The notes beneath the pieces are model-generated. The model saw only the letters and a list, made by a program, of their open reading frames with translations. It made no database searches and had not been told where the DNA came from. Positions 4,250 to 20,259 of a DNA stretch of 56,959 nt are shown here, one piece after another. Every line of letters begins with the position of its first letter. The first letter of the stretch is position 1. The position numbers were made by a program, and so were the translations under genes. Source of the DNA: Chitinophagaceae bacterium T5-Br10_B2g13 (lineage in GTDB: Bacteria > Bacteroidota > Rhodothermia > Balneolales > Balneolaceae); NCBI GenBank assembly GCA_001564065.1, contig LKNA01000011.1, positions 1-56,959 of the forward strand, in the 5' to 3' direction.

Positions 4250-7200
4250 ATGAAAGCAAAATTTACAGTAATCTGTCTCACAGTTTTAGGCTTCATATTC
4301 AGCTTTGCCACTCCCTTGATGGCACAGTCTGACCATGTAGTTGTCGAAGAGGGTGAAGATGGATGGAGACTACTTGTCAACGACGAACCTCTGATGGTTA
4401 ACGGTATGAACTGGGATTACTTTCCCATTGGAACCAATTATAACTACAGCATATGGAATGAATCCCCTGAATTTATAATGGAAGCTTTAGACAACGAGAT
4501 GGGTTTACTCCAAAATATGGGAGTTAACGCTATTCGTGTTTACACCGGAATACCGAAAGAGTGGATCGAATATATATACGACAACTATGGAATTTACACC
4601 ATGCTTAATCACGCATTTGGGCGTTACGGCGTCACAATAGACGGGGCATGGATGGGGAATACGGAGTATTCTGATGAAAAAGTGAGAGAGCTTTTGCTCA
4701 GTGAAGTAACAGAGCTGGCCGAAGAGTACCGGGATACGCGTGGCCTTTTACTTTATCTGCTTGGAAATGAGAATAACTATGGACTTTTCTGGGGCGGTGC
4801 TGAAACGGAAGACATCCCTGTAGAAGACCGAATTTCAACGGAAAGAGCCCGACACATGTACCGACTCTTCAATGAGGCTTCTGTAGCTATGAAAGAGATC
4901 GACAGTAATCGGCCTATTGCAATAGCTAATGGTGATTTACTCTTTTTAGATCTGATTGTAGAGTACGCACCTGATATCGACATCTTCGGCTCTAATGTTT
5001 ATCGTGGCTTAACATTCACTGATCTCTACGACAGAGTTAGGGATGAATATGGTAAACCTGTTCTGCTAACCGAATTTGGATCAGACGCTTTTAACGCGAG
5101 GACAAACCAGGAAGATCAGGTAGCTCAGGCACGCTACAAACTCAATAACTGGAAAGATATCTACGAAAATGCCGCCGGAATGGGCCGAGCCAACAACTCC
5201 ATTGGAGGCTTTACTTTTCAATTTAGTGATGGCTGGTGGAAACATGGTCAGACCGAAGATCTGGATGTACACAATACAGAAGCGTCATGGGCTAACGCCG
5301 GCTACCAGTTTGACTACGTTGAAGGTGAAAATAACATGAACGAAGAGTGGTTCGGAATTACAGCTAAAGGACCAACAAATAGTGAGGGTTTTTATGACCT
5401 ATACCCAAGAGCTGCTTACTACGTAATTAAAGATGCACACGAGTTCAACCCGTACGCAGAAGGAGTTACAATGGAAGACCTTCAGCGGCATTTTAATAAT
5501 ATCCGGCTTACAAATGCCAAGTTACAGGCACGAGGCGACAAAGGTGCACTTGAGGCTGAGCGGAATAGCAAAATCAGACTGAGCAGGTTTACTGCGGATT
5601 TTAGAACCTATAACACCGGAGGAAGTCTTCTAACCACTCCTGATGAAGCTGACCAGAATACACGTACATATCCAAACCAGCTGGGTTTCGACCATATGCA
5701 ATCTTTTTACGTAGGAGTTGAGGCTAATCCTGCCCCTAACGTAAGAGGTAACATAGAGTTTAACGTTCTGGGCAATGTTGCTGAAAATCCCATTGATGAA
5801 ATTTTCTATGAAAATCGTGGCCGCCCTGTTGATGTAGCAAACCGGGAGAATGAAGAAGTTACGTTACAATCGCTAAACAGAATTGAGGTTTATCAAGCCA
5901 GTTATAGCTGGAACCACAGTTTATTTGATCTTGACGGGTTTTATCGAACAGGTCACTACCACTGGGCATATGAAGGCGATTTCTTCAACCTTTATCCTGA
6001 AGCAAACTATGGCGATCAAATATTTATTTACAATGGATTAGCTCCTATTGGTTTTGAGCTGTCAGGAAAGAAAAATTTTGATGGATTTAAAATGGCGTTT
6101 GGACCTGAACTTTGGTGGGGAGCAAACCCGGCTGTATTGTTAAAGTATTCCACTACTTTCAGAAATTACGACATTACGGGAATCTACCACGAAGATATTG
6201 CCGAACAGGGTGATATTGAGAGCTCATTCGCTATTCCAAGACCTAAAACCAGACGTGTAACACTTCACGTAGACAGAGATTTTGGAAACTTTGGAGTGCA
6301 GGCAGGTGGTATTTGGGGTGGCCAGCCATTGAATGGCAGACTGTTCCAGATTGCACGCGAGGAAAGTGATGGCAGCATTTCCGTTTACCAGGATGAGATT
6401 AAACCTGAAGATAACTGGGGCGGTAAGCTTAAGCTCACCTACGAAGGTGGCAGGTTTAACTGGTATGCCCAGTCAGCCATAATGGGGCTGGTTGCAGATG
6501 GCGGAGCTGATCAGACTCTCACCTATACAGGCTGGAGACTGAAAGACAGTGGAAGCGGAAACCAGTACAATTTCCTGACCGGTCTTACTTACATGGTTGG
6601 AAACTTTCAAATTGCGCCCAACTTTTTGTGGCAGCAACCTATCGAAGGCCCAATACCATCGAGCGTTGAAGCTCCCGGCAGACCAAGAAATATACTTGAT
6701 GACCCCTTTGTTGTGAGAGGTAACAGAGAGCAGGTAGCCGGAGAGATCCTGATCACGTACGACCCTACCCCGGCAACTTTTATGTATGACTGGGACAGCG
6801 ACCGATCTGAAGATGCTGCATTTGCCATAAGCGCAGGTTTTGTATACCGCCACCTGCCAACTACACAGGATGCCGCTATCGGTATTTTACCTGACGGCCG
6901 GTCAACATTTGCATTCGACGGTGCCCCGGATCCAAAAGATCTCTGGGAAGTACATGCAAGAATTGTATCTAAACCAACCCGAGATTTTGGCATTATAGCG
7001 AATGTATATGGTGGTCCTGCACAGTCGAACGGCAGTGATGATCGCACAATACATCGGTACGGTGTGGATATACGTTCGATCTATAAAAGAGTTATGCTCA
7101 ATAGCTACGTAAAAATTGATGATTGGGGACCATATGACTATCACAGGGATTTCAATCTCACATTTCCACTGCAGCTAATGGGAGACCTCTCAACTACACT

Positions 7201-7399
7201 CTCAAACCCTGATTGGTTTGGTATGCCCGCAACCCGTATAGGTGTACGAGGTACCTGGCGATCCCTGGATCGATTCTCACCGCGCTATGCTCCGGCACAA
7301 CCGGTTAACGAGTTTGATGCGCCCGACCCGAATGCTGCCGCTGGTTTTGATAATGGCAGTGAATGGGAGTTTAGAACTTATATTCAAATAAATATTTAA
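4250..7399 (+). CDS. Secreted clan GH-A glycosidase fused to a C-terminal outer-membrane beta-barrel-like domain
   Basis: A 1049-residue protein with a signal peptide (cleavage likely after Ala25, in LMAQS). Residues ~30-405 form a glycosidase TIM barrel: GVNAIRVYTG, LLYLLGNENNYG (probable acid/base Glu174) and VLLTEFGSDAF (probable nucleophile Glu275), followed by a GGFTFQFSDGWWK segment. The closest relatives by eye are the GH2 catalytic domain and GH72/GH5-like beta-glucan enzymes; I cannot fix the family. Residues ~406-445 look helical. From ~480 to the end, about 570 residues consist of alternating polar/hydrophobic strands rich in Tyr, Trp and Phe with short turns and Asp/Asn/Gly-rich loops, ending in WEFRTYIQINI, as in outer-membrane porins. 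It heads the glucan cluster, 16 bases before the binding lipoprotein. A glycosidase with its own barrel could combine surface hydrolysis and import (inference). Confidence 0.75.
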   Translation: MKAKFTVICLTVLGFIFSFATPLMAQSDHVVVEEGEDGWRLLVNDEPLMVNGMNWDYFPIGTNYNYSIWNESPEFIMEALDNEMGLLQNMGVNAIRVYTGIPKEWIEYIYDNYGIYTMLNHAFGRYGVTIDGAWMGNTEYSDEKVRELLLSEVTELAEEYRDTRGLLLYLLGNENNYGLFWGGAETEDIPVEDRISTERARHMYRLFNEASVAMKEIDSNRPIAIANGDLLFLDLIVEYAPDIDIFGSNVYRGLTFTDLYDRVRDEYGKPVLLTEFGSDAFNARTNQEDQVAQARYKLNNWKDIYENAAGMGRANNSIGGFTFQFSDGWWKHGQTEDLDVHNTEASWANAGYQFDYVEGENNMNEEWFGITAKGPTNSEGFYDLYPRAAYYVIKDAHEFNPYAEGVTMEDLQRHFNNIRLTNAKLQARGDKGALEAERNSKIRLSRFTADFRTYNTGGSLLTTPDEADQNTRTYPNQLGFDHMQSFYVGVEANPAPNVRGNIEFNVLGNVAENPIDEIFYENRGRPVDVANRENEEVTLQSLNRIEVYQASYSWNHSLFDLDGFYRTGHYHWAYEGDFFNLYPEANYGDQIFIYNGLAPIGFELSGKKNFDGFKMAFGPELWWGANPAVLLKYSTTFRNYDITGIYHEDIAEQGDIESSFAIPRPKTRRVTLHVDRDFGNFGVQAGGIWGGQPLNGRLFQIAREESDGSISVYQDEIKPEDNWGGKLKLTYEGGRFNWYAQSAIMGLVADGGADQTLTYTGWRLKDSGSGNQYNFLTGLTYMVGNFQIAPNFLWQQPIEGPIPSSVEAPGRPRNILDDPFVVRGNREQVAGEILITYDPTPATFMYDWDSDRSEDAAFAISAGFVYRHLPTTQDAAIGILPDGRSTFAFDGAPDPKDLWEVHARIVSKPTRDFGIIANVYGGPAQSNGSDDRTIHRYGVDIRSIYKRVMLNSYVKIDDWGPYDYHRDFNLTFPLQLMGDLSTTLSNPDWFGMPATRIGVRGTWRSLDRFSPRYAPAQPVNEFDAPDPNAAAGFDNGSEWEFRTYIQINI

Positions 7400-7415: not shown

Positions 7416-8840
7416 ATGATGGATTTAAAAATAATTTATAAGTATAAGCTCACTATTGTGCCGGCGCTGTTCATCCTCCTGTTTTTGGGGTGCGAGCGAA
7501 CGGTTAGTGACTTAGAGACTCCCGATTTTACGGAGAACCCGGAAGTATTTATTGACGGATTTAGTGCAGGATTGGAATATTTTCCTTACGAAGGTTCAAA
7601 GGCAGATGCTTTCAGCGTTGATTCACGTAACACTATTGAAGGCAGTTCTCTTTCAATGCGCTTTGATGTGCCTAATGTAGGGGATCCGGATGGTGCTTTC
7701 GCCGGAGCTATCTTCAGAGACGAAAATGGCGGAAGAAACCTGACCTCCTACAATGCTCTTACATTTTATGCCAAAGGCACCAGAGCCGGTACTATTAATG
7801 ACATCGGTTTTGGGCAGGATTTCTTCGGAAATAGATTCGAAGTAGGATTGAGTGGCCTTAGATTAACCACCAACTGGAGAAAGTATGTGATCCCAATTCC
7901 GGACGCTTCACTGTTAACCCAAGAACGTGGGTTACTGTGGTATGCAGAGGGTCCTGAAAACGGTGACGGGTACTCCTTTTGGCTGGATGACGTTAAGTTT
8001 GAAAATCTTCCGGGTCTGGCTCAGCCACGACCTGCAATAATGAATGGTAACGAAGAGACGATAACCAGTTTTACCGGTTCTGCTACTTCAGTTAGCGGTC
8101 TTACGTTCACAATGAACCAAGCAAACGGAGTAGATGTAACCGTTGGCGCTGCACCGGCCTACTACTCATTCAACTCATCCAACACCAGCGTAGCCACTGT
8201 TAATGAAGCAGGACAGGTTACCGTTGTTGGCGAGGGTACTGCTGAAATTACAGCAACCATGAGGAGCTTAAATGCCCGTGGAGCACTAATTATAGAATCA
8301 ATAGGAGTTTTCACACCGGCCCCGACCCCAACAGAAGATCCTGAAAATGTAATTTCCATTTTCAGTGATGCCTACGAAAACGTTCCTGTTGATTTCTATA
8401 ATGGCTTTTATGCCCCATTTCAAACCACTACTTCAAATGACTTTGAAGTAAATGGTAATAACGTTCTGGGATATGAGAATTTCAATTTTGTGGGAATCGA
8501 GTTTAATCAAAACGTACCTACAATTGACGGAAGTGAGATGAATTTCTTAAGCATGGATGTTTTCTTCCCGGATGAGGTCCCGGCTAATTCACAACTGAAT
8601 GTAAATCTAAGAGACTTTGGTCCTGATGATTCGTTTGATGGAGGAGATGATACCGTTGTATCGACTTCTGTTAGCACACCTGCATTGGTCTCCGGTGAAT
8701 GGATCAGAATTGATCTGGATATCTCTGGAATGGCTAACAAGTCCAATCTTGGTCAGATCGTATTGGATGCTGACCCAGCACAAACAAATCCACTAGTTGG
8801 GTCAACGTTCTACGTCGACAATATTTACCTGCGCAAGTAG
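7416..8840 (+). CDS. Surface glycan-binding lipoprotein with two CBM-like domains and a BIG2-type Ig domain
   Basis: A 474-residue lipoprotein: hydrophobic leader and lipobox LFLGC (Cys26), followed by acidic residues as in surface-exported lipoproteins. Residues ~45-205 form a jelly-roll carbohydrate-binding-like domain (YNALTFYAKGTRAG, then a FWLDDVKFENL end). Residues ~205-300 contain a bacterial Ig-like BIG2 segment (VATVNEAGQVTVVGEGTAEI). Residues ~310-474 form a second jelly-roll ending in STFYVDNIYLRK. No catalytic motif is visible. It probably holds beta-glucan at the cell surface, the role SGBP/SusE-like proteins play elsewhere. ATGs at 7416 and 7419 are both possible. The stop codon lies inside a perfect 13-bp hairpin. 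Confidence 0.75.
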   Translation: MMDLKIIYKYKLTIVPALFILLFLGCERTVSDLETPDFTENPEVFIDGFSAGLEYFPYEGSKADAFSVDSRNTIEGSSLSMRFDVPNVGDPDGAFAGAIFRDENGGRNLTSYNALTFYAKGTRAGTINDIGFGQDFFGNRFEVGLSGLRLTTNWRKYVIPIPDASLLTQERGLLWYAEGPENGDGYSFWLDDVKFENLPGLAQPRPAIMNGNEETITSFTGSATSVSGLTFTMNQANGVDVTVGAAPAYYSFNSSNTSVATVNEAGQVTVVGEGTAEITATMRSLNARGALIIESIGVFTPAPTPTEDPENVISIFSDAYENVPVDFYNGFYAPFQTTTSNDFEVNGNNVLGYENFNFVGIEFNQNVPTIDGSEMNFLSMDVFFPDEVPANSQLNVNLRDFGPDDSFDGGDDTVVSTSVSTPALVSGEWIRIDLDISGMANKSNLGQIVLDADPAQTNPLVGSTFYVDNIYLRK

Positions 8841-8902: not shown

Positions 8903-9739
8903 ATGAAAACATCACTAAAAATTCTCCTCTGCCTAAATTTCCTGGCCCTCACTCTATCAGGTTGTGGAACTGAAAACGAACCTGAGGAAGAAATCACCAG
9001 AGAAATAATCTGGCAGGATGAATTCGATGTAGATGGAAGCCTTGATCCCGATCGCTGGACCTTCGACATTGGAACCGGCGTGGAGATCTTCGGCCAGCCC
9101 GGATGGGGAAACAACGAGCGACAATACTACACAGACCGACCTGAAAATGTCCGTATTGAAGATGGTATGCTGCATATAACCGCAAGAGAAGAGTCTTTTG
9201 AAGGCTCTTCTTATACCTCGGCCAGAATACTGACAAGAGGTCTGTTTGAAACAACTTTTGGCCGGTTCGAAGCAAGTATCAAGCTACCCTTTGGCCAGGG
9301 AATTTGGCCGGCATTCTGGTTACTTGGAGACGATTCTGATGGTACGGTAATCTGGCCACAAATTGGTGAGATCGATATCATGGAGTATCGTGGACAGGAA
9401 CCATTAGTAATTCATGGAAGTATTCATGGACCGGGTTATTCTGCAGGAAATGCTGTTACCAGGCGATATCGGTTAACAGAAGGCAGATTCGATACTGACT
9501 TTTATCTGTTCGCTATAGAGTGGGAGCCTAACTCCATTAAATTTTTCGTCGACGATGTAATGTACAATGAAATTACACCGGACGATGTGGATGGAGAGTG
9601 GGTTTTCAACGATAACACATTTCACATTATACTCAATGTGGCAGTCGGCGGAACATTTGTTGGACCTCCTTCAAATTTAACGCCTTTCCCTCAAACCATG
9701 ATGGTGGATTACGTAAGGGTTTACAAACAAGGAAATTAG
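8903..9739 (+). CDS. GH16 endo-beta-1,3-glucanase (laminarinase) lipoprotein
   Basis: A 278-residue lipoprotein with lipobox LSGC (Cys21) and an acidic stretch, ENEPEEE, after it, which suggests export to the surface. The rest is one GH16 jelly-roll: WQDEFDVDGSLDPDRWTFDIG at the start, RFEASIKLPFGQGIWPAFWLLG, then the catalytic GEIDIME (nucleophile Glu156, Asp158, acid/base Glu161), the HGSIHGPGYS substrate strand and a C-terminal MMVDYVRVYKQ. These are the hallmarks of bacterial laminarinases, which cut internal beta-1,3 bonds of laminarin and mixed-linkage glucans. It lies between the binding lipoprotein and the phosphorylase and is followed by a hairpin with a T-rich tail at 9748. Confidence 0.93.
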   Translation: MKTSLKILLCLNFLALTLSGCGTENEPEEEITREIIWQDEFDVDGSLDPDRWTFDIGTGVEIFGQPGWGNNERQYYTDRPENVRIEDGMLHITAREESFEGSSYTSARILTRGLFETTFGRFEASIKLPFGQGIWPAFWLLGDDSDGTVIWPQIGEIDIMEYRGQEPLVIHGSIHGPGYSAGNAVTRRYRLTEGRFDTDFYLFAIEWEPNSIKFFVDDVMYNEITPDDVDGEWVFNDNTFHIILNVAVGGTFVGPPSNLTPFPQTMMVDYVRVYKQGN

Positions 9740-9789: not shown

Positions 9790-12700
9790 ATGAAAAAAAC
9801 GAATAATAGAACATTGGCAAAATCTATTTCTGTAGAAAATTTTGACGGAGAAAAGTGGTTTAAAATCAGTAACTATGATCAACTGCGACCATTTTTTATG
9901 AGTGTTGTAAGTGATTCAAACCACTGGATGTTTATATCCAGTAACGGCGGGCTCAGCGCCGGAAGAAAAAATGCTCAATACGCCCTCTTCCCCTATTATA
10001 CTGATGATAAAATTACCGACCTGGCTGATACAACAGGCAGCAAAACCATCATTCAGGTAAAGAAAAATGATGAAATTCTTCTCTGGGAGCCTTTTTCGGA
10101 TCGATTTACAGATAATTTCTCGCTCACCCGAAATCTGTATAAAAACAGGTTTGGCAATAAAATTCTTTTTGAAGAGATCAATAACGATCTGGGACTCACT
10201 TTCAGGTATGAATGGAATTCAAGCAATCAATATGGATTTGTCAGAACCTCTGAGTTGATCAACCATTCTGATCGTGATCACACTCTTTCATTCATAGACG
10301 GTATACAAAACGTACTTCCCTATGGCGTTGAAAGCGACCTACAGCAGGCCTCAAGTAATCTTGCAGACGCCTACAAAAGAACGGAGTTAGTCGCTGAATC
10401 CGGTTTAGCTGTTTTTGCACTGAGCGCCATCATTGTAGATAAAGCAGAACCCAGCGAAGCCCTGAAAGCTAACATTGCCTGGTCATTAGGTCTTGATAAA
10501 CCCAAGCATCTTTTATCATCGCTCCAGCTCAATACATTCCGTAACAAGGAAGAGATCGTTGAAGAGCAGGACGTTAAAGGAGAAAAAGGAGCCTATTTCC
10601 TTCATGAAGAGATTGTTTTACCGGCAAACGAAACCAAAAAGTGGAAAATCGTTGCGAATGTAAATCAGAATCAGTCGCAAATTGTAGAGCTGAATAAAGC
10701 TATTCAGAACGATAAATACTTAAAAGAAAATGTACTGCAAGATGTAGAAGCTGGAACCGAGAGGCTTTTGCTGTTAACCGGTAGCGCAGACGGCCTGCAG
10801 AAAACTTCAGATCATCTGAAAGATGCTCGCCACTACTCTAATGTGCTGTTTAACATTATGCGCGGTGGTATTTTTGACGATAATTACCAAATTGAAAAGG
10901 ACGATTTCCTCTCCTATCTGAAGGGTGCAAATTCAAATGTATACAGTAGAAACCAACAATTTGTTGATCAGTTGGACGAGGTATTTTCAAATACGGAGCT
11001 GTATGACCGTGTTGAGAAAATGGACGATCCGGATTTGCTGCGCCTTTCGAAAGAGTATTTGCCACTAAAATTCAGTCGCAGACACGGAGATCCAAGCCGG
11101 CCCTGGAATCAGTTTTCCATCAATACGCACAGCGAACTGGATGGATCAAAAATTCTGGATTACGAGGGCAACTGGCGTGATATTTTCCAGAACTGGGAAG
11201 CATTGGTTCACTCCTATCCCGGCTTTATTGAAGGCATGATTTTCAAGTTTCTGAACGCCACCACGTTTGACGGTTACAACCCATACAGGGTTACCAAAGG
11301 CGGGTTCGACTGGGAAACGATCGACCCTGATGATCCTTGGTCATACATCGGCTACTGGGGAGATCATCAGATTATCTACCTCCTGAAATTTTTAGAGTTT
11401 TACAGAAACCTTCAGCCGGATGCGCTCGAACAGCTTTTCAACAAAGAGTGCTTCGCTTATGCTAATGTACCCTACCGGATCAAATCTTACGAGCAGATTG
11501 CAAAAGATCCCAAAAACACCATCGATTTTGATGGTAAATCGGATCAGGAAATTCATAAAAAAGTAGAAGAGATCGGGGCCGATGGTGCACTTCTTCAAAG
11601 TGAGCAGAGTGATATCTACCGGGTTAACTTTATTGAGAAGATTCTGGCTACTGTTCTTGCCAAAATGTCCAATTTCATACCTGAAGGCGGTATCTGGATG
11701 AACACCCAGCGTCCGGAATGGAATGACGCCAACAACGCCCTGGTAGGAAACGGGGTCTCTATGGTGACACTCTATTACCTCCGGCGATTTTTGAAATTCT
11801 TTGAAAGCACCCTCTCTGAAACAGAGCTTAATGAGTTGGTTATTTCCGAAGAACTCGATCGCTTTTTTACCCAAATTTCAGACACTCTTCAGCAACATAA
11901 AGGATTACTAAATAACCGGTTTGATGACGCAGACAGAAAAGCTGTTACCGATGCTTTGGGAATGGCCGGCAGTGAGTATAGAAACCGGATTTATGAAAAT
12001 GGGTTTACCGGAAATAAGGAATCGCTGAAAATTGATCAGATTTCTGAATTCTTAAATACAGCCCTCTCCTATCTGGAGCACTCCATTGAAGCAAATCGAA
12101 GAGAAGACAATCTTTATCATGCATATAACCTAATGAGCATGAATCCTGATGGGGTTTCAATTTCCCGTCTTGATGAGATGCTGGAAGGTCAGGTTGCGGT
12201 TCTCAGCTCAGGTTACTTGAGCCCGCGGGAGTCTGCTGAGGTGATGGATGCCCTTCGCAACAGCGCCCTCTATCGGGAAGATCAGAACAGCTATATACTC
12301 TACCCAAACAAGGAGCTTCCCGGATTTTTAGAGAAGAATAACATCCCGAAAAATTTGGTTGAAAAATCGGAGCTGCTTAAGCAGATGGTTGCAGACAGTG
12401 ACCGTAGAATTATCAACAAAGACGTAAAAGGTAATTACCATTTCAACGGTAACTTCAGAAATGCAGGAGATTTGAGTAAAGCTCTCCATCAGATCAACTC
12501 TGACAAATATCAGTCACTGGTTGAAAAAGAGTTCGACCTACTCCTTCAAATTTTTGAAGAGGTATTTAATCACAAAGCGTTTACCGGGCGGTCCGGAACA
12601 TTCTTCGCCTTTGAGGGACTGGGTTCCATCTACTGGCATATGGTTTCCAAACTCTACCTGGCTGTGGAAGAGGTAACTCTTGAAGCTATTCATAAGGGCG

Positions 12701-13233
12701 CTGACACATCCGTACTCAATCGTCTGAAAAACCATTTTTATGAAGTTGGGGATGGAATCGGAATTCATAAATCACCTGAAGTTTACGGAGCATTTCCAAC
12801 CGACCCATACTCGCACACTCCATATCACAGAGGGGCACAGCAGCCCGGCATGACCGGTCAGGTGAAGGAGGATATACTTGTTCGAATGGGTGAACTGGGA
12901 GTATTTATTGAAGATGGAAAGCTGGTATTTAACCCTGTTCTGCTCAAAGAGAGCGAATTTCTCAAAGAGAAGTCTCAATTCAACTATGTCGATGTGAAGG
13001 ATATCGACCGAAAGCTTGACCTTCAGCCAAACTCAATGGCATTTACATTTTGCCAGGTACCGGTTGTCTATAAAAAATCCGGTAAAACCGGAATCAAAGT
13101 CACATTCAGCAGCGGTGATAACGAAAATATTAATGGCTTGAACCTGAACAGGAACGTCAGCCGGAAAATATTTAATCGTACCGGTGAAATTGAATTGATC
13201 ATAGTTGATTTGAAAAGCGATCAGCTTACATAG
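9790..13233 (+). CDS. Cytoplasmic GH149/GH161-like beta-1,3-glucan phosphorylase
   Basis: A 1147-residue protein without signal peptide or membrane segments. The N-terminal third is beta-rich (WFKISNYDQLRPFFMSVVSD, WMFISSNGGLSAGRKNAQYALFPYY), as in the beta-sandwich domain of GH94-related phosphorylases. The central part carries the (alpha/alpha)6 landmarks DYEGNWRDIFQNWEAL, GYWGDHQIIYLLKFLEFY and RPEWNDANNALVG, with Asp646 the likely general acid. Length and motifs fit the beta-1,3-oligoglucan phosphorylase families GH149 (about 1100 residues) and GH161 better than cellobiose or laminaribiose phosphorylases of GH94. The expected reaction is phosphorolysis of laminari-oligosaccharides to glucose-1-phosphate in the cytoplasm, saving ATP. 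Choosing between GH149 and GH161 needs a profile search. Confidence 0.72.
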   Translation: MKKTNNRTLAKSISVENFDGEKWFKISNYDQLRPFFMSVVSDSNHWMFISSNGGLSAGRKNAQYALFPYYTDDKITDLADTTGSKTIIQVKKNDEILLWEPFSDRFTDNFSLTRNLYKNRFGNKILFEEINNDLGLTFRYEWNSSNQYGFVRTSELINHSDRDHTLSFIDGIQNVLPYGVESDLQQASSNLADAYKRTELVAESGLAVFALSAIIVDKAEPSEALKANIAWSLGLDKPKHLLSSLQLNTFRNKEEIVEEQDVKGEKGAYFLHEEIVLPANETKKWKIVANVNQNQSQIVELNKAIQNDKYLKENVLQDVEAGTERLLLLTGSADGLQKTSDHLKDARHYSNVLFNIMRGGIFDDNYQIEKDDFLSYLKGANSNVYSRNQQFVDQLDEVFSNTELYDRVEKMDDPDLLRLSKEYLPLKFSRRHGDPSRPWNQFSINTHSELDGSKILDYEGNWRDIFQNWEALVHSYPGFIEGMIFKFLNATTFDGYNPYRVTKGGFDWETIDPDDPWSYIGYWGDHQIIYLLKFLEFYRNLQPDALEQLFNKECFAYANVPYRIKSYEQIAKDPKNTIDFDGKSDQEIHKKVEEIGADGALLQSEQSDIYRVNFIEKILATVLAKMSNFIPEGGIWMNTQRPEWNDANNALVGNGVSMVTLYYLRRFLKFFESTLSETELNELVISEELDRFFTQISDTLQQHKGLLNNRFDDADRKAVTDALGMAGSEYRNRIYENGFTGNKESLKIDQISEFLNTALSYLEHSIEANRREDNLYHAYNLMSMNPDGVSISRLDEMLEGQVAVLSSGYLSPRESAEVMDALRNSALYREDQNSYILYPNKELPGFLEKNNIPKNLVEKSELLKQMVADSDRRIINKDVKGNYHFNGNFRNAGDLSKALHQINSDKYQSLVEKEFDLLLQIFEEVFNHKAFTGRSGTFFAFEGLGSIYWHMVSKLYLAVEEVTLEAIHKGADTSVLNRLKNHFYEVGDGIGIHKSPEVYGAFPTDPYSHTPYHRGAQQPGMTGQVKEDILVRMGELGVFIEDGKLVFNPVLLKESEFLKEKSQFNYVDVKDIDRKLDLQPNSMAFTFCQVPVVYKKSGKTGIKVTFSSGDNENINGLNLNRNVSRKIFNRTGEIELIIVDLKSDQLT

Positions 13234-13257: not shown

Positions 13258-14556
13258 ATGAAAAACATACTCTTACTTCTTATCGCAATCACAGTACCAC
13301 TGCTTATGAGTTCATGCAACGGTTCACCGGATCGACAGGCTGCCGGCAGTAGTGTTACTGCCGCCGAAATTTTAAGCGACCCCTACTACAGGGCGATCTC
13401 ATTTGGCGCGTACCGCGACACCACCAGGGACATACAGCCCACTATCCCGCAGCTTAAGGACGATATTAAGATACTGCATGCCATGGGAATCCGTCTGCTT
13501 AGAACCTACAACGTATATTACGATGAGGCAGAAAACCTGCTCAAAGCAATTCGTGAAGTTCAGCAAGAGGATCCGGAGTTCGACATGTATTTGATGATGG
13601 GTGCCTGGATCGACGCCAAATACGCATGGACAGATCATCCTGAAAGAATCAGGGATGTTGAGAGCGAGGAGAACGAAAGCGAAATTGAACGAGCTATAGC
13701 GCTTGCCAATGAATATCCCGATATCGTTAAAATTCTTGCCGTGGGCAATGAAGCGATGGTCCACTGGGCGTGGGAGTATTACGTTGAGCCGGAAATAATT
13801 CTCAACTGGGTAAACTACCTTCAGGATCTGAAACAGCAGGGAGATCTGCCCGAGACACTTTGGATTACCAGTTCAGACAACTTCGCGTCGTGGGGTGGCG
13901 GTGATCCGGTATACCACAAAGATGCATTAAACGAACTGATCCGCGCTGTGGATTACATCTCCTTGCACACCTACCCCATGCACGACACGCACTACAACCC
14001 CGAATTCTGGGGAGTACCTGAAGATGAACAGCACCTCTCTGACATGGAGAAAATTGATGCAGCCATGCACCGTGCACTCGACTATGCCAAAATGCAATAT
14101 CAAAGCGTGGTGGACTATATGAGAAGCCTGGGTGTGGAAAAACCGGTTCACATCGGAGAAACCGGCTGGGCAACTATATCCAACGAATTTTACGGACCCG
14201 AGGGAGCCCGTGCCATCGATGAATATAAAGCGGGGATGTATCACGACTTGGTGCGTGAATGGTCGGAAAGCGAAGGAATCAACCTTGTCTATTTTGCAGC
14301 CTTTGATGAGCCGTGGAAAGATTCAGAAAATCCTCTCGGTTCTGAAAATCACTTCGGTTTAATCAACCTGCAGGCGGAAGCAAAATATGCCATCTGGGAC
14401 CTCGTAGATGAGGGTGTATTTGAGGGACTGACCCGCGACGGACAGCCAATCACCAAAACCTACAATGGAGATTTCGAGGCGCTTTTAGAAGATGTACTGG
14501 TACCGCCAACTGAACAGGAAATACAGCAGAGACTGGAAACTGAAAACGCTAACTAA
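13258..14556 (+). CDS. GH17 beta-1,3-glucanase lipoprotein
   Basis: A 432-residue lipoprotein (lipobox MSSC, Cys20). The GH17 TIM barrel is recognisable from ISFGAYRD, LLRTYNVYYDEA, ILAVGNEAM (acid/base Glu165), YISLHTYP, and VHIGETGWAT (nucleophile Glu301), then YFAAFDEPWKD and a FGLINLQ end. GH17 enzymes hydrolyse, or in some bacteria transglycosylate, beta-1,3-glucans. It sits in the envelope, probably the periplasm or outer membrane. The gene overlaps nothing and is followed by one base and then the ATG of the GH30 gene. Its sequence is closer to the third GH17 protein (19330-20259) than to the MFS-fused one. Confidence 0.88.
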   Translation: MKNILLLLIAITVPLLMSSCNGSPDRQAAGSSVTAAEILSDPYYRAISFGAYRDTTRDIQPTIPQLKDDIKILHAMGIRLLRTYNVYYDEAENLLKAIREVQQEDPEFDMYLMMGAWIDAKYAWTDHPERIRDVESEENESEIERAIALANEYPDIVKILAVGNEAMVHWAWEYYVEPEIILNWVNYLQDLKQQGDLPETLWITSSDNFASWGGGDPVYHKDALNELIRAVDYISLHTYPMHDTHYNPEFWGVPEDEQHLSDMEKIDAAMHRALDYAKMQYQSVVDYMRSLGVEKPVHIGETGWATISNEFYGPEGARAIDEYKAGMYHDLVREWSESEGINLVYFAAFDEPWKDSENPLGSENHFGLINLQAEAKYAIWDLVDEGVFEGLTRDGQPITKTYNGDFEALLEDVLVPPTEQEIQQRLETENAN

Positions 14557-14557
14557 G

Positions 14558-16057
14558 ATGAAAAATAGTGTATTCACGATTTGCGCAACACTGCTTTTAT
14601 TCTTCCTTACAAGCTGTACAATGAGTGACCAGATAGACATCCAAATTTTTGAAACATCAAAGAGCGGGAATCAATTAACCGAACGAGTGGAATTTCCTGA
14701 TTCAGATATTCGGGTTGAAGTCACAATCAACCCTGATGAACGTTTTCAGGAAATCACGGGATTCGGCGGTTCATTCACCGAAGCTTCTGCTTACCTTTTA
14801 AATGAGCTGAGCAGAGATAACAGAATGAAAATTCTGGAGGCCTATTTCGGAGATGACGGAGCCCGTTACTCTCTAACCCGCAAGCACATGAACTCCAGTG
14901 ACTTCTCCCTCTCCAACTACTCCTACGCACCGGTTGAAGGAGACGTTGACCTGGAACACTTCTCCATCGACGAAGACCGGGATGACATCATACCTATGAT
15001 CAAAGACGCGATGGAAATTTCAAAGGATGGGTTTAAGATCATCGCATCGCCCTGGACGGCGCCGCCGTGGATGAAAGACAATAACGACTGGAAAGGCGGT
15101 AAACTACTCCCTGAGTACTACGACACATGGGCGCTCTTCTTTTCTAAATACGTTGACGCCTACCGCGAGGAAGGAATTGATATCTGGGCATTTACAGTAG
15201 AAAATGAACCTCTCGGAAATGATGAAAACTGGGAGAGCATGCATTTCACACCGGAAGAGCAGAATGAATTTGTAAAAAATCACTTGGGTCCGCAGCTTAG
15301 AAATGATGGGCAGGATGTGAAAATTTTCGGATACGACCAGAACCGGGATGCGGAGCTGATCGAATGGGTGGATGTCATGTATGATGACCCGGATGCCGCT
15401 CAGTACTACGATGGTACGGCCGTGCACTGGTATGGCAGTACCTACCACTACTTTCCCGAAGAGCTGCAGTATGCACACAGAAAAGCCCCGGATAGGCATT
15501 TAATTCAAACTGAGGCTACGGTTGATGCTGAAGTACCCGCATGGAAGGACGACGATTGGTACTGGTCGAAAGAGGCTACCGATTGGGGCTGGGATTGGGC
15601 TCCCGAAGAGCGAAAGCATCTGCATACCAAATATGTACCGGTTTACCGCTATGCACGTGATATGATTGGCACATTAAACAATTGGGTTGACGGCTGGATA
15701 GACTGGAACATGGTGCTGGACAGGCAAGGCGGACCAAATTGGGCCGAAAACTGGTGCGCAGCACCCGTGATTGTAGATCCCGATCTGGATGAGGTCTACT
15801 TCACTCCTCTTTACTACACCATGGCTCACTTCAGCAGATTCATCCGTCCCGGAGCATACAGAATCGGGCTCGATCATTCCGATGATGAGCTCATGGTTAC
15901 CGCCGTACAAAATCCGGATGGATCTGTAGTGGTTGTCCTGTTAAATCAAACCGAGGAAACTCACGGAATTGACCTCAATCTGAACGGGCAAGTACACAAG
16001 TTTTCAATTCAGGGTAGTGCACTACAGACTGTTGTGCTAACCGGACTCAAATCATAA
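14558..16057 (+). CDS. GH30 beta-1,6-glucosidase/glucanase lipoprotein
   Basis: The start is the ATG at 14558, directly after the GH17 stop; it gives a clean lipoprotein leader (FFLTSC, Cys20) and a 499-residue product, whereas an earlier in-frame TTG would add a hydrophilic extension inside the GH17 gene. The GH30 domain shows ITGFGGSFTEASAYLL, KIIASPWTAPPWMK, FTVENEP (acid/base Glu217), VHWYG and LIQTEATVDA (nucleophile Glu319), ending in the family's small beta-sandwich (VVVLLNQTEETHGIDL). Laminarin loci often carry GH30 enzymes that remove beta-1,6 branches, so that role is likely here. Subfamily 1 or 3 cannot be decided by eye. It acts in the envelope and is followed 11 bases later by the transporter-GH17 fusion. 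Confidence 0.87.
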   Translation: MKNSVFTICATLLLFFLTSCTMSDQIDIQIFETSKSGNQLTERVEFPDSDIRVEVTINPDERFQEITGFGGSFTEASAYLLNELSRDNRMKILEAYFGDDGARYSLTRKHMNSSDFSLSNYSYAPVEGDVDLEHFSIDEDRDDIIPMIKDAMEISKDGFKIIASPWTAPPWMKDNNDWKGGKLLPEYYDTWALFFSKYVDAYREEGIDIWAFTVENEPLGNDENWESMHFTPEEQNEFVKNHLGPQLRNDGQDVKIFGYDQNRDAELIEWVDVMYDDPDAAQYYDGTAVHWYGSTYHYFPEELQYAHRKAPDRHLIQTEATVDAEVPAWKDDDWYWSKEATDWGWDWAPEERKHLHTKYVPVYRYARDMIGTLNNWVDGWIDWNMVLDRQGGPNWAENWCAAPVIVDPDLDEVYFTPLYYTMAHFSRFIRPGAYRIGLDHSDDELMVTAVQNPDGSVVVVLLNQTEETHGIDLNLNGQVHKFSIQGSALQTVVLTGLKS

Positions 16058-16068
16058 ATAAATAATAG

Positions 16069-18420
16069 ATGTCACAACCTAGTGCTATAAAAAAGAAAGT
16101 CCCCTATCGGCATAAGATAGCATTCGGGATGGGTATGCTGGCCAACCAGATGTTTCCCGCAACGTTGGGAATATTCATGGTGGTACTTGTTCAGAATTTA
16201 GGATTCCCCGGTTGGATGTGGGGCATTGTCTATTTCCTGCCAAGGGTTCTCGATGCGGTTACCGATCCTATCGTGGGGTTTATATCTGATAATACACGCT
16301 CAAGGTTTGGCCGCAGAAGGCAGTATGTAATTACAGGAGCGGTTATCATGGGGATCGCATTTACTATCATGTGGCAGCTCTATGCAGAAAACACAGTCAA
16401 TTACAATTTTGGCTACTTCTTATTCTGGTCATTTGCCTTCTACATCGGCTTAACCATATTCAGTGTGCCATATGTGGCTATGGGTTATGAAATGAGTGAA
16501 GATTTTCATGAGAGAACCGAAATTATGGCCATTGCTCAATGGATTGGTCAATGGGCATGGGTAATCGCTCCCTGGTTCTGGGTCATCATGTACGATCCGG
16601 CATGGTTTCCATCCGCTGAAGCAGCCACCCGCGAACTTGCGATCTGGGTGGGTATTACCTTTGCAATCTGCGCTATGATTCCCGGGATCTTTATTCCCAG
16701 TAAATCTACGGTGAATGAAGATTATGAATCGCTGACACTGAACAACATTAAGCGGAGCCTCAAAGAAATCATCAGGGGGTTCAAGGAGGCATTGTCATTA
16801 ACTCCATTCAGAAAACTCTGTATTGCAACATTTTTCATTTTTAATGCCTTTAACACTGTTGCCGGGTTTACTTTCTTTATTGTTGTATGGTATCTGTTTG
16901 GCGGAGATGCGGGCGAAGCAGGCATTTGGATCCCTCTCTTTGGTAGCGCCGGCGCACTGGTGACCACCTTTTTGGTTATACCGATAGTGGCACGTATGTC
17001 AAGAATACTTGGCAAGAAAAGAGCATTCATGATCGCTCAAACGATAGCACTGTTTGGATATGCGAGTCTTTGGTTCCTATTTGTCCCCGGAAAACCGTGG
17101 ATGTTCTTGCTGGCATTGCCCTTTCACTCGTTCGGGATTGGTAGTTTATTTGTGTTGATGATGTCGATGACTGCCGATGTGATTGATATAGACGAACTCA
17201 ATTATGGAAAACGCAGAGAGGGAATATTCGGTGCGATTTACTGGTATATGGTGAAGTTTGGTTTTGCGATTGCCGGGGGTTTAAGCGGGGTCATTCTAAC
17301 CGTTGTCGGTTTTGATGGGAATCTCACGGTTCAGCCTGAAGGAGCGATCACAGGATTGAGATTATTCTTTTCAGCTCTGCCAATGTTTGGAACTTTGGTG
17401 GCACTTTGGGTAATGCGGGATTATGATGTAACCGAAGAAAAAGCGAATGAGGTACGGGAAATCTTAGATGCCCGAAAAGCAGTAAAAGATGCAGTTGCTG
17501 TCCCGTATTCTTACCAAAAAGACCGGTTGCTCTCTTTAGCCTCTGTCGATTCCGAAGTGGAAGTTATCGCTGCTGAAATCAATAAACTCAGCATAAGTAA
17601 GTTAAAGAAAAGCTTCAAAGAGTCACTGAACAGCGGTATTCATGGCTTCTGTTTCAGTCCTTACAAGGAAGGGCAAAATCTTGGAGATCAGCTATCAAGA
17701 GAGCAAATAGAGAAAAGAATGAAGATTGTGGCTCCCCACACCAAATGGGTGCGTTCATTCTCATGTACCGATGGTAATGAATTGATTCCCGAAGTTGCCA
17801 AAGAGATGGGTTTAAAAACCTTGGTTGGGGCCTGGATCGATAACAACCTGGAGGCCAACGAGACTGAGATAGAAAATTTAATCAATATTGCCAAGGCTGG
17901 TCATGCTGATATTGTCTCTGTTGGTAACGAATGCTTATTGAGAGAAGAACTGAGTGAGGATAAGATCATCGCGTACATCAATAAGGTTAAAGAGGCTTTA
18001 CCCGGAGTGCCGGTAAGTTATGTAGACACTTACTATCAACTCCACCAGAGTCCTGAAGTTATTGAGGCCTGTGATGTTGTGCTTGCCAACTGCTACCCGT
18101 TCTGGGAAGGCTATGATGCCAACCAATCATCGATCTACTTGGATAAGATGTACGAAGTAATTAAAGAGGTTTCAGGCGGTAAAAAAGTGATTATTGCAGA
18201 AACAGGCTGGCCTACATACGGGAAAAGCGTTGATCAGGCTGAGCCGTCAGTCGAAAATATGATGAAGTATTTTATCCGCTTAAAGAAATGGAGTGAACAG
18301 GAAGGAGTTGAAGTTTTCTACTTCTCATCATTTGATGAATCCTGGAAAGCCCGACACGAAGGTGATGTAGGTGCCAGATGGGGCCTTTGGAATAAAAATG
18401 AACAGTTAAAAGTAAACTAA
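16069..18420 (+). CDS. GPH-family MFS sugar symporter fused to a C-terminal GH17 glucanase domain
   Basis: A 783-residue fusion in one uninterrupted frame. Residues 1-450 form a 12-helix glycoside-pentoside-hexuronide:cation symporter, with the motifs FLPRVLDAVTDPIVGFISD, SRFGRRR and, later, DVIDIDELNYGKRREGIFGA. Residues ~451-520 are a charged, helical linker. Residues ~522-783 form a complete GH17 barrel: SGIHGFCFSPYKEGQ, WVRSFSCTDGNELIPEVAKE, SVGNE (acid/base Glu621), IIAETGWPT (nucleophile Glu711), YFSSFDESWK. Because MFS proteins end in the cytoplasm, the GH17 domain should sit at the cytoplasmic mouth and trim beta-1,3-gluco-oligosaccharides as they enter (inference). Both active-site glutamates are present. 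The next gene is a free copy of the same domain, 2 bases away. Confidence 0.9.
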   Translation: MSQPSAIKKKVPYRHKIAFGMGMLANQMFPATLGIFMVVLVQNLGFPGWMWGIVYFLPRVLDAVTDPIVGFISDNTRSRFGRRRQYVITGAVIMGIAFTIMWQLYAENTVNYNFGYFLFWSFAFYIGLTIFSVPYVAMGYEMSEDFHERTEIMAIAQWIGQWAWVIAPWFWVIMYDPAWFPSAEAATRELAIWVGITFAICAMIPGIFIPSKSTVNEDYESLTLNNIKRSLKEIIRGFKEALSLTPFRKLCIATFFIFNAFNTVAGFTFFIVVWYLFGGDAGEAGIWIPLFGSAGALVTTFLVIPIVARMSRILGKKRAFMIAQTIALFGYASLWFLFVPGKPWMFLLALPFHSFGIGSLFVLMMSMTADVIDIDELNYGKRREGIFGAIYWYMVKFGFAIAGGLSGVILTVVGFDGNLTVQPEGAITGLRLFFSALPMFGTLVALWVMRDYDVTEEKANEVREILDARKAVKDAVAVPYSYQKDRLLSLASVDSEVEVIAAEINKLSISKLKKSFKESLNSGIHGFCFSPYKEGQNLGDQLSREQIEKRMKIVAPHTKWVRSFSCTDGNELIPEVAKEMGLKTLVGAWIDNNLEANETEIENLINIAKAGHADIVSVGNECLLREELSEDKIIAYINKVKEALPGVPVSYVDTYYQLHQSPEVIEACDVVLANCYPFWEGYDANQSSIYLDKMYEVIKEVSGGKKVIIAETGWPTYGKSVDQAEPSVENMMKYFIRLKKWSEQEGVEVFYFSSFDESWKARHEGDVGARWGLWNKNEQLKVN

Positions 18421-18421
18421 A

Positions 18422-19327
18422 ATGTCTTTTAGAGAAGAAAAGTACCTGAGTTTTAAAAAATCGGATGTTATTCCAAAACTGGATTATCTGGAAGAGCTGT
18501 CCAAAGATGAACTGCACGATCTGTTCCTGGAGGTTTTATACAGTGGGATCCACGGTTTTTGTTTCAGCCTTTACGAAGAGGGACAAAAGCCCGGCGATAG
18601 CATAACTTTAGTACAAATTGAAAAAAGAATAAACATCCTGAAAAAGCACTCCGAATGGGTCCGCTCCTTCTCTTGTACAGAGGGGAATGAACTCATTCCC
18701 GAAGTTGCCAAAAAAGCCGGCTTAAAAACACTGGTTGGAGCCTGGCTTGGCAGCGATAAGGAGAAGAATAAAAAAGAGATCGAAAACCTGGTAGAGTTAG
18801 CCAATAAGGGCCTTGTTGATGTGGCAGCTGTTGGTAATGAAGTTCTCTACAGGGAAGATCTTTCGGAAGCTGAGCTGTTAGAGTATATCGAGGACGTTAA
18901 ACGTCAGCTTCCGGATATTCCTGTTGGGTATGTAGATGCCTACTATGAATTTGTTCAAAGACCAAATATCACCGACGCTTGCGACATCATTTTGTGCAAC
19001 TGTTACCCCTACTGGGAAGGCACCGACTTCAAGGATTCATTCCAGCATATGAGACAGATGTACCATCAAGTTGAGCATGCAGCAAAAGGTAAGAAAGTGA
19101 TGATTTCTGAAACCGGATGGCCAAATAAGGGAGAGGCACTGGGAAATGCTGTCCCCTCCCGGCAAAATGCAATGCTTTACTTTATCAATACCTACCTTTG
19201 GGCGAATGACGAAGATATAGATGTTTTTTACTTCTCCTCTTTTGATGAATCATGGAAAATCAGCTCAGAAGGTGAAGTAGGTGCCTACTGGGGCGTCTGG
19301 GACAAAAACGGTAAACTTAAATATTGA
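18422..19327 (+). CDS. Soluble cytoplasmic GH17 protein, paralogue of the fused domain
   Basis: A 301-residue protein without a signal peptide. From residue ~40 to the end it aligns without large gaps to the GH17 part of the preceding fusion, with roughly half the residues identical by eye: SGIHGFCFSLYEEGQ, WVRSFSCTEGNELIPEVAKK, AVGNE (acid/base Glu140), MISETGWPN (nucleophile Glu230), YFSSFDESWK. A tandem duplication of the domain, attached in one copy to the transporter, explains this. The ATG follows the fusion's stop by 1 base, so the two are probably translated together. It is predicted to act on imported beta-1,3-gluco-oligosaccharides as a hydrolase or a transglycosylase; which one cannot be told from the motifs. 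Confidence 0.85.
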   Translation: MSFREEKYLSFKKSDVIPKLDYLEELSKDELHDLFLEVLYSGIHGFCFSLYEEGQKPGDSITLVQIEKRINILKKHSEWVRSFSCTEGNELIPEVAKKAGLKTLVGAWLGSDKEKNKKEIENLVELANKGLVDVAAVGNEVLYREDLSEAELLEYIEDVKRQLPDIPVGYVDAYYEFVQRPNITDACDIILCNCYPYWEGTDFKDSFQHMRQMYHQVEHAAKGKKVMISETGWPNKGEALGNAVPSRQNAMLYFINTYLWANDEDIDVFYFSSFDESWKISSEGEVGAYWGVWDKNGKLKY

Positions 19328-19329
19328 GA

Positions 19330-20259
19330 ATGAACGCATATAATAAACTTGGTTTACTGCCCGGAAAAGCTATCTGCTATTCGGGTTTCAGAGATGGTCA
19401 GCGCCCGGGATTGAAGTATCCCAACTATGAAGAAGTGCGGGAGGATCTGCTGCTGCTTCACAAGCATTGGAAATATATCCGGTTATTTAACTGCGATCTG
19501 CATGCAGAAATTGTGTTGGATGTAATCAGAAACGAAGGCCTTCAATTTCAGGTCATGCTTGGTGCCTATATCGAAGCAGAAGTAAATAATTTCAATTGCC
19601 CCTGGGGCGGTGGAATACATCCGCGAAAAGTACTTGAACAGAACGCTGAAAAAAACATCAACAAGATGTTTAAGCTTGCGGAACTTGCAAACCGTTACTC
19701 AGATATCGTTTTTTTGCTATCTGTAGGAAATGAGGCGTGCGTAGACTGGACAGATCATCTCGTTCCCACAGAGCGTGTGATACAGTATGTTCGTGCTGTA
19801 AGAGAACGTGCAAATCAACCGATAACGTTTTGTGAAAACTATGTACCCTGGCTTTCAAAGCTGGAAGCATTAGCACATGAATTAGATTTCATCTCCATTC
19901 ACACCTACCCCGTATGGGAGTATAAAAATATTTATGAAGCCCTAGACTATACGAAAGAGAACTACTGGTCTGTAGCCAACAGATATCCGGATAAACCCGT
20001 GGTCATTACCGAAGCCGGTTGGGCTACCAAATCCAATGGCAAAGGCATACTCCGCGAAAATGTAAATGAAGAGTATCAAAAAATCTATTTTGAAAAATTG
20101 ATGGATTGGGCTGAAAAGGAGAATATTCTTACGTTTTTCTTTGAAGCTTTTGATGAAACCTGGAAAGGTTCACCCGAGCCTTCAGAGCCTGAAAAACATT
20201 GGGGAGTGTTCAAAATAGACAGATCTCCCAAGCTCGTAATGAAGAAAGTGTCATCATAA
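19330..20259 (+). CDS. Soluble cytoplasmic GH17 protein, second lineage
   Basis: The last gene of the glucan run encodes about 309 residues from the ATG at 19330; a TTG at 19324 overlapping the previous stop is an alternative start. There is no signal peptide. GH17 landmarks are AICYSGFRDGQRPG, YIRLFNCD, LLSVGNEAC (acid/base Glu135), FISIHTYPVWEY, VITEAGWATKS (nucleophile Glu228) and FFEAFDETWKG. It has EAGW where the other copies have ETGW. The HTYP and GWAT segments resemble the secreted GH17 lipoprotein at 13258 more than the immediate upstream neighbour, so two GH17 lineages coexist. Probably a cytoplasmic beta-1,3-oligosaccharide hydrolase or transglycosylase. Confidence 0.82.
   Translation: MNAYNKLGLLPGKAICYSGFRDGQRPGLKYPNYEEVREDLLLLHKHWKYIRLFNCDLHAEIVLDVIRNEGLQFQVMLGAYIEAEVNNFNCPWGGGIHPRKVLEQNAEKNINKMFKLAELANRYSDIVFLLSVGNEACVDWTDHLVPTERVIQYVRAVRERANQPITFCENYVPWLSKLEALAHELDFISIHTYPVWEYKNIYEALDYTKENYWSVANRYPDKPVVITEAGWATKSNGKGILRENVNEEYQKIYFEKLMDWAEKENILTFFFEAFDETWKGSPEPSEPEKHWGVFKIDRSPKLVMKKVSS

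Follow-up and report, generated by a model that had tools for sequence, protein, structure and literature searches.

The open reading frame (ORF) at 4250-7399 on the forward strand of contig LKNA01000011.1 from Chitinophagaceae bacterium T5-Br10_B2g13 (family Balneolaceae; assembly GCA_001564065.1) almost certainly encodes, in one protein and in this order, a signal peptide, a clan GH-A glycoside hydrolase (GH) and a predicted outer-membrane beta-barrel. The stretch analyzed, referred to here as the window, comprises 56,959 nucleotides, and the fused protein found in it is a member of a widespread Bacteroidota family rather than a one-off. On balance, we favor a reading in which an outer-membrane pore, carrying a GH158-like beta-1,3-glucanase as a tethered domain, would act, together with a partner lipoprotein and a GH16 enzyme, as an entry gate for beta-1,3-glucan that is independent of SusC/SusD. 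The computed results that support this reading are the signal peptide, the pair of catalytic glutamates, the amphipathic barrel, the absence of a plug or TonB match, and the fixed operon.

A hydrolase and a barrel in a single reading frame

The original prediction, made from the letters of the window alone, had placed a signal peptide, a GH-A domain with Glu174 and Glu275, and a C-terminal run of amphipathic strands in one frame, and sequence, alignment and models all agree with this arrangement. To define the family, contigs were scanned with a profile of the barrel, which yielded at least 564 pattern stretches (two patterns were used per protein, and one gene may count twice); 80 distinct loci kept from these form the sample for all counts of fused loci. 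The contig includes the 5' end of the gene in 73 loci, and in every one of them the barrel is fused to the GH; in the other 7 the gene is cut by a contig end. The fusion architecture is well supported because sequence, conservation and two structure predictions agree, and it exceeds what chance would produce because it recurs in 73 of the 73 testable loci. An assembly or frameshift artefact was rejected because 73 other loci show the same fusion. Within its own genome the ORF is the single match. The full-length AlphaFold2 (AF2) model has a predicted TM-score (pTM) of 0.54, and an NCBIfam scan of the fused protein gave no match.

The hydrolase domain resembles GH158

AF2 predicts a TIM barrel for residues ~30-400, and the top fold match of the full-length model in the PDB is BuGH158 (6PAL; Foldseek E 1.8e-14), with GH157 and GH2 structures ranking shortly after it; alignments of the full-length model span both domains, and only their GH part was used. 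A profile built from 18 GH sequences also matched 6PAL, although weakly at the sequence level (E 2.3e-5), and pairs N173-E174 and E275 with N136-E137 and E220 of BuGH158, whose residue numbers come from passages of PMC7157763; by our own count, the published numbers differ from those of the chain by 22. Both glutamates are invariant across 67 fused proteins. Passages of the same source describe BuGH158 as an endo-beta-1,3-glucanase whose activity was abolished by mutating the catalytic residues. The GH half is thus a predicted beta-1,3-glucanase that appears GH158-like by fold and catalytic residues.

In phmmer, the single fused protein matched no PDB chain up to E 1, and Pfam returned for it a GH53 match below the cut-off, for which reason a GH53 identity was dropped. 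The Pfam model of the GH2 TIM barrel matched 12 of the 18 GH-family members, the window's own protein not being among them. This explains why RefSeq names the Bacteroides finegoldii homologue WP_022275059.1 (59% identity) a "glycoside hydrolase family 2 TIM barrel-domain containing protein".

The C-terminal half is a predicted outer-membrane barrel

For the C-terminal half, a porin-like region of about 570 residues forming a closed barrel of 16-18 strands had been proposed. The region does resemble an outer-membrane barrel, but it covers about 600 residues (442-1048) and contains ~22 principal strands, a number that two hairpins taken here as parts of loops could raise. The barrel-only AF2 model has a pTM of 0.73 and a mean pLDDT of 76, and its best 50 Foldseek matches are all outer-membrane barrels (TonB-dependent transporters, porins, AlgE and ushers). 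A beta-propeller or beta-sandwich fold, either of which would have spoken against the original prediction, did not appear, and we rejected both. The TM-scores among the matches listed are low, at most 0.35 by query length and 0.42 by target length; because of this, both the exact strand number and the closure of the barrel are provisional.

Amphipathicity supports the same assignment. Across 26 predicted strand segments, which derive from the structure prediction, the alternation of hydrophobicity reaches a mean contrast of 2.76, compared with 1.50 ± 0.21 when residues are shuffled within strands (0 of 2000 shuffles as high); the strands of the protein's own TIM barrel reach 1.73. Long loops alternate with turns that are mostly very short, although two of the ten measure 12 and 21 residues. 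Strand 1 starts on the side of the short turns, the periplasmic one if outer-membrane proteins are oriented as usual. With strand sides assigned by hydrophobicity, mean entropy is lowest for strand residues of the polar side (0.81) and for the long loops (0.90), higher for the hydrophobic side (1.21) and the short turns (1.22), and highest for the linker (residues 408-441; 1.76, compared with 0.8-1.2 elsewhere in the barrel half). The difference between long loops and hydrophobic side is significant (P 3e-5). Such conservation of long loops is not typical of general porins and would fit a specific passage or an interface with a partner.

Sequence families add no assignment to the barrel: a PDB search with the barrel profile and Pfam scans of 28 barrel halves gave chance-level matches only, and none of the TonB, plug or autotransporter families of Pfam matched the window protein or the 28 barrel halves at E 0.1. 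Taken together, the C-terminal half is very probably an outer-membrane pore.

A widespread family with a fixed gene order

Among 146 genomes, those of relatives together with the window's own, 60 had a match to some part of the family. In the phylum as a whole (395 genomes, relatives included) the barrel was matched in 35, comprising 33 strong matches, one broken copy (G018) and one remnant (G020), and no further distant barrel relatives were detected in these genomes at E 0.001. The 80 sampled loci come from Balneolaceae, Flavobacterium, Chryseobacterium, Cloacibacterium, Lewinella, Saprospiraceae, Bacteroidales and others.

The order of genes in these loci is largely fixed. The next gene encodes the partner lipoprotein family in 80 of 80 loci, and the third gene, where there is one, encodes a GH16 in 73 of 76 (exceptions: L060, L116 and L119); at least one of GH149, GH17, GH30 and a major facilitator superfamily (MFS) transporter follows downstream in 64 of 80. 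A cysteine at the end of the signal peptide is invariant in the 66 partner lipoproteins scanned, 52 of which contain Big_2 and 25 CBM11, and none of which contains a SusD domain. Because of this gene company (GH16, GH149 and the others), the substrate is very probably a beta-1,3-glucan of the laminarin type.

Partner lipoproteins vary in length from ~430 to 1345 aa, with ORFs of 1340-1345 aa in L123, L127 and L138, as if glycan-binding modules had been added to suit the substrate. Two further loci deserve mention. In the gut bacterium Bacteroides finegoldii (NZ_OY725931.1, L188:9937-22903), a DUF6377 gene precedes a group made up of the fused gene, the lipoprotein (annotated "hypothetical protein"), GH16, a gene of the fimbrillin family and BglX; SusCD is absent among the 18 features listed for this stretch, whose gene table may be incomplete, and the plasmid status of the sequence is doubtful given chromosomal-looking genes such as those for valine tRNA ligase and ribosomal protein S1. 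A contig labelled Verrucomicrobia (L117) has the fusion together with the lipoprotein, GH16 and the first part of a GH149 gene, and groups inside Bacteroidota sequences in the tree, indicating either a transfer or a mis-binned contig.

The same enzyme without its barrel

The GH also occurs alone, as a barrel-less protein of ~430 aa, in 20 loci, of which 19 contain GH149 and none the partner lipoprotein; for one of these (L184, genome G092), a longer stretch contains a lipoprotein-like ORF on the opposite strand, ~8 kb upstream. Within the genus of the window, five standalone copies (L031-L035) nest in an otherwise fused clade of the tree. Three of them (L031-L033) retain 33-60 residues of the barrel start, none of the five loci has the lipoprotein, and GH16 is present only in L035, on the other strand. 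This pattern looks like loss of barrel and lipoprotein with retention of the GH. The whole tree, which is unrooted and therefore gives no date for the original fusion, requires 6 changes between the fused and standalone states, 3 of which are forced by well-supported branches. We also considered a separate barrel gene in the standalone genomes and rejected it, since none is listed outside G002, a genome that also contains a fused copy (the match in G018 is a broken copy). Distant standalone relatives (~26% identical) lie beside GH149 and GH17 at L052:5148-6203 and L053:5053-6045, and possibly represent an outgroup.

Some standalone enzymes are found in the company of SusC and SusD. In L184 and L185 the standalone GH follows SusC-SusD-GH16, with GH149 next in L185; Pfam confirms a SusD before the standalone GH in three loci, L036, L046 and L047 (directly before); and in G088 and G097 a distance of ~10-15 kb separates the GH from SusC/D orthologues. 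Next to the fused gene, BLAST detected SusC/D-like ORFs in 3 of 80 loci (L063, L124 and L133), and 2 SusD were present among 52 unlabelled neighboring ORFs scanned (of 120 with at least 380 aa). Counted by genome, a SusD orthologue of at least 68% identity was detected in 8 of the 19 genomes with a standalone GH and in 4 of the 33 with the fusion (Fisher P 0.019; P 0.037 when G092, from which the query was taken, is left out). On the window's contig (C241) SusD had no match, and Pfam identified neither SusC nor SusD among the 13 window proteins scanned, no dedicated SusC profile search of the window having been made. Hence, in many genomes, though not in all, this enzyme seems to be paired with either the fused barrel or SusCD. 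The original prediction had set the fusion against glycan systems in which hydrolase and SusC channel are separate proteins, and this contrast has become sharper than claimed: SusC/D is rare beside the fused gene, and the barrel-less GH sits in some SusC-SusD loci.

A candidate entry gate and its alternatives

The original prediction, that a single protein could cut a polysaccharide and let the product pass through its own pore, is supported in part. In the entry-gate reading, the partner lipoprotein would bind glucan at the cell surface, where GH16 would cut it, and the pieces would pass through the barrel with its conserved inner face and long loops. The tethered GH may then shorten the pieces as they emerge on the periplasmic side; this would trap the sugar and maintain a steep inward gradient, allowing one-way uptake without energy from TonB; GH17, the MFS transporter (or MFS-GH17), GH30 and GH149 would complete the pathway. 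The predicted topology makes a periplasmic GH somewhat more probable than one at the surface because the GH is attached ahead of strand 1, where the short turns are, and the long loops lie outside. More tentatively, the family may exemplify a SusCD-independent mode of polysaccharide import in Bacteroidota, in which a pore-enzyme fusion acts with its own lipoprotein and hydrolysis at the pore exit, rather than TonB, drives uptake.

Several observations weigh against an entry gate that replaces SusCD. The contrast in SusCD content is confounded by ancestry, with all 12 SusD orthologues located in order-level relatives; 11 of the 19 standalone genomes have no SusD orthologue; the fused genome G099 carries SusD on the same contig as the fused gene; and the window's genome has 10 SusD genes, on other contigs. 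Fused loci were read over at most 9 kb per side, and many contigs end sooner. Confidence in the barrel model is moderate and its TM-scores are low, as given above, and the barrel could be an anchor only.

That last possibility is the strongest rival, which we nonetheless consider unlikely: in an autotransporter-like surface display, the barrel would hold the GH outside the cell, and glucan pieces would enter through another transporter. An N-terminal passenger followed by a C-terminal barrel is indeed the order of autotransporters. A lipobox can be recognized by eye in about 7 of 17 aligned standalone GHs (a pattern count gives 9 of 17, some wrongly), which fits a surface GH and suggests that the barrel may replace a lipid anchor. 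Consistent with this, passages of PMC7157763 describe BuGH158 as a predicted cell-surface enzyme. The barrel itself argues in the other direction, in that no autotransporter family matches it at E 0.1 and that its linker helices are the least conserved part while the polar face and long loops are among the most conserved, unlike a mere anchor. Moreover, ~600 residues with ~22 predicted strands exceed the 12-16 strands of autotransporter barrels.

Alternatively, an ordinary porin and a periplasmic enzyme may have been joined for co-delivery only, the fusion having no mechanistic role. The 20 loci with a GH lacking the barrel, three with 33-60 residues of its start left behind, speak for this, yet the barrel never occurs without the GH where this is visible (73 of 73) and the fusion has been kept across Bacteroidota, and we judge this explanation improbable as well. 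Least credible is a TonB-dependent transporter derivative with the GH in place of the plug domain: ~22 strands is the number found in such transporters, which are frequent among the Foldseek matches listed and have the highest TM-scores by query length, but every barrel type scores low, TonB and plug families are unmatched at E 0.1, the GH would be too large for the barrel lumen, and it is joined through a poorly conserved linker.

Beta-1,3-glucan, as laminarin, forms one of the largest pools of algal carbon, and SusC/D are the markers commonly used to recognize its uptake by Bacteroidota. If the entry-gate reading is true, an overlooked transporter would be present in "CAZyme clusters lacking susCD" (CAZyme: carbohydrate-active enzyme), and the fusion would offer a compact test case for coupling hydrolysis to membrane passage.

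The operon in the window

The genes that follow the fusion in the window are collected in Table 1. The GH149 homologue shows full-length similarity to the solved GH149 phosphorylase 6HQ6 (1568.6 bits over 9-1142). The operon also contains a second transporter-enzyme fusion, MFS-GH17, so that GH-barrel and MFS-GH17 make two, one predicted for each membrane.

Table 1. Predicted features of the fused gene and of the genes downstream of it in the window.
Feature	Position	Strand	Basis and remarks
GH–barrel fusion ORF	4250-7399	+	1049 aa, single open frame, no internal stop
Signal peptide, residues 1-26 (...PLMAQ|SD), no lipobox	4250..4327	+	Sequence; cleavage site placed by eye
GH158-like clan GH-A TIM-barrel domain, residues ~30-400	4337..5449	+	AF2, Foldseek, profile match
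E174, predicted acid/base, preceded by N173	4769..4771	+	Aligns with BuGH158 N136-E137
E275, predicted nucleophile	5072..5074	+	Aligns with BuGH158 E220
Linker with two helices, residues 408-437, poorly conserved	5471..5560	+	AF2, entropy
Predicted outer-membrane beta-barrel, residues 442-1048, ~22 strands	5573..7393	+	AF2, amphipathicity, Foldseek, entropy
Partner lipoprotein, Big_2 domain, putative surface glycan-binding protein	7416..8840	+	Cys26 invariant in 66
GH16, lipobox by eye	8903..9739	+	Pfam PF00722 E 4e-23
GH149 beta-1,3-oligoglucan phosphorylase homologue, 1147 aa, no signal peptide seen	9790..13233	+	6HQ6
GH17, lipobox by eye	13258..14556	+	PF00332 E 2.8e-5, below cut-off
GH30, true start probably downstream of 14492	14492..16057	+	PF02055 E 1.5e-78
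MFS sugar transporter fused to GH17, one frame	16069..18420	+	PF13347 and PF00332
GH17	18422..19327	+	PF00332
GH17-like	19324..20259	+	PF00332 E 4.7e-6, just below cut-off
Y_Y_Y / LuxR-type (GerE) regulator	20508..23201	+	Weak Pfam matches below cut-off

Comparison with known systems

The hydrolase half is closest to GH158, as represented by BuGH158 (6PAL) and GH158(Pro) (9ORO), with which it shares the clan GH-A fold, both glutamates with the preceding asparagine, and a beta-1,3-glucan locus containing GH16. Unlike the fused protein, BuGH158 has an immunoglobulin-like domain and no membrane barrel, and the two are linked by the weak profile match given above. SusC/SusD systems and 1,3-glucan polysaccharide utilization loci (PULs) likewise combine an outer-membrane barrel, a lipoprotein and GH16 in a beta-glucan locus. 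They differ in that the fused barrel has no plug or TonB match and carries the enzyme itself, and in that its lipoprotein is of the Big_2/CBM11 type.

The gene company of the fusion (GH16, GH149, GH17, GH30 and MFS) is shared with GH149 clusters. Passages of PMC5827456 describe GH149 CAZyme clusters lacking susCD, those of PMC13188888 a Muricauda laminarin locus that contains GH16, GH149 and, upstream, a "GH2" gene, and those of PMC10108472 expressed "GH149-GH0-..." loci in North Sea blooms; the Muricauda and North Sea clusters are termed PULs by their authors. The passages of these three papers mention neither a barrel nor a fusion on the enzyme, and it is our guess that the Muricauda GH2 and North Sea GH0 genes belong to the fused family.

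In the titles, opening lines of abstracts and passages of the open-access literature searched, a GH fused to an outer-membrane barrel is described nowhere that we found. To this extent the original prediction, which knew of no described family with this order, holds, but the protein is no isolated case and belongs to the widespread family described here. Two other kinds of fusion come near to it. Like the GH-barrel protein, the Formosa MFS-GH17 of PMC6246565, as described in passages of that paper, joins a transporter to a CAZyme in laminarin loci, and a fusion of the same kind is encoded in the window (Table 1); it differs in being an inner-membrane MFS carrier with the enzyme at its C terminus. 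The closest described architecture that we found is the cytochrome-porin fusion Cyc2 which, from passages of PMC8406198, differs from the fused GH in having a small haem domain, 16 predicted strands and a role in electron transfer instead of glycan uptake. Like the fused GH, Cyc2 carries an N-terminal catalytic domain on a C-terminal porin, and its authors place that domain at the periplasmic mouth of the pore.

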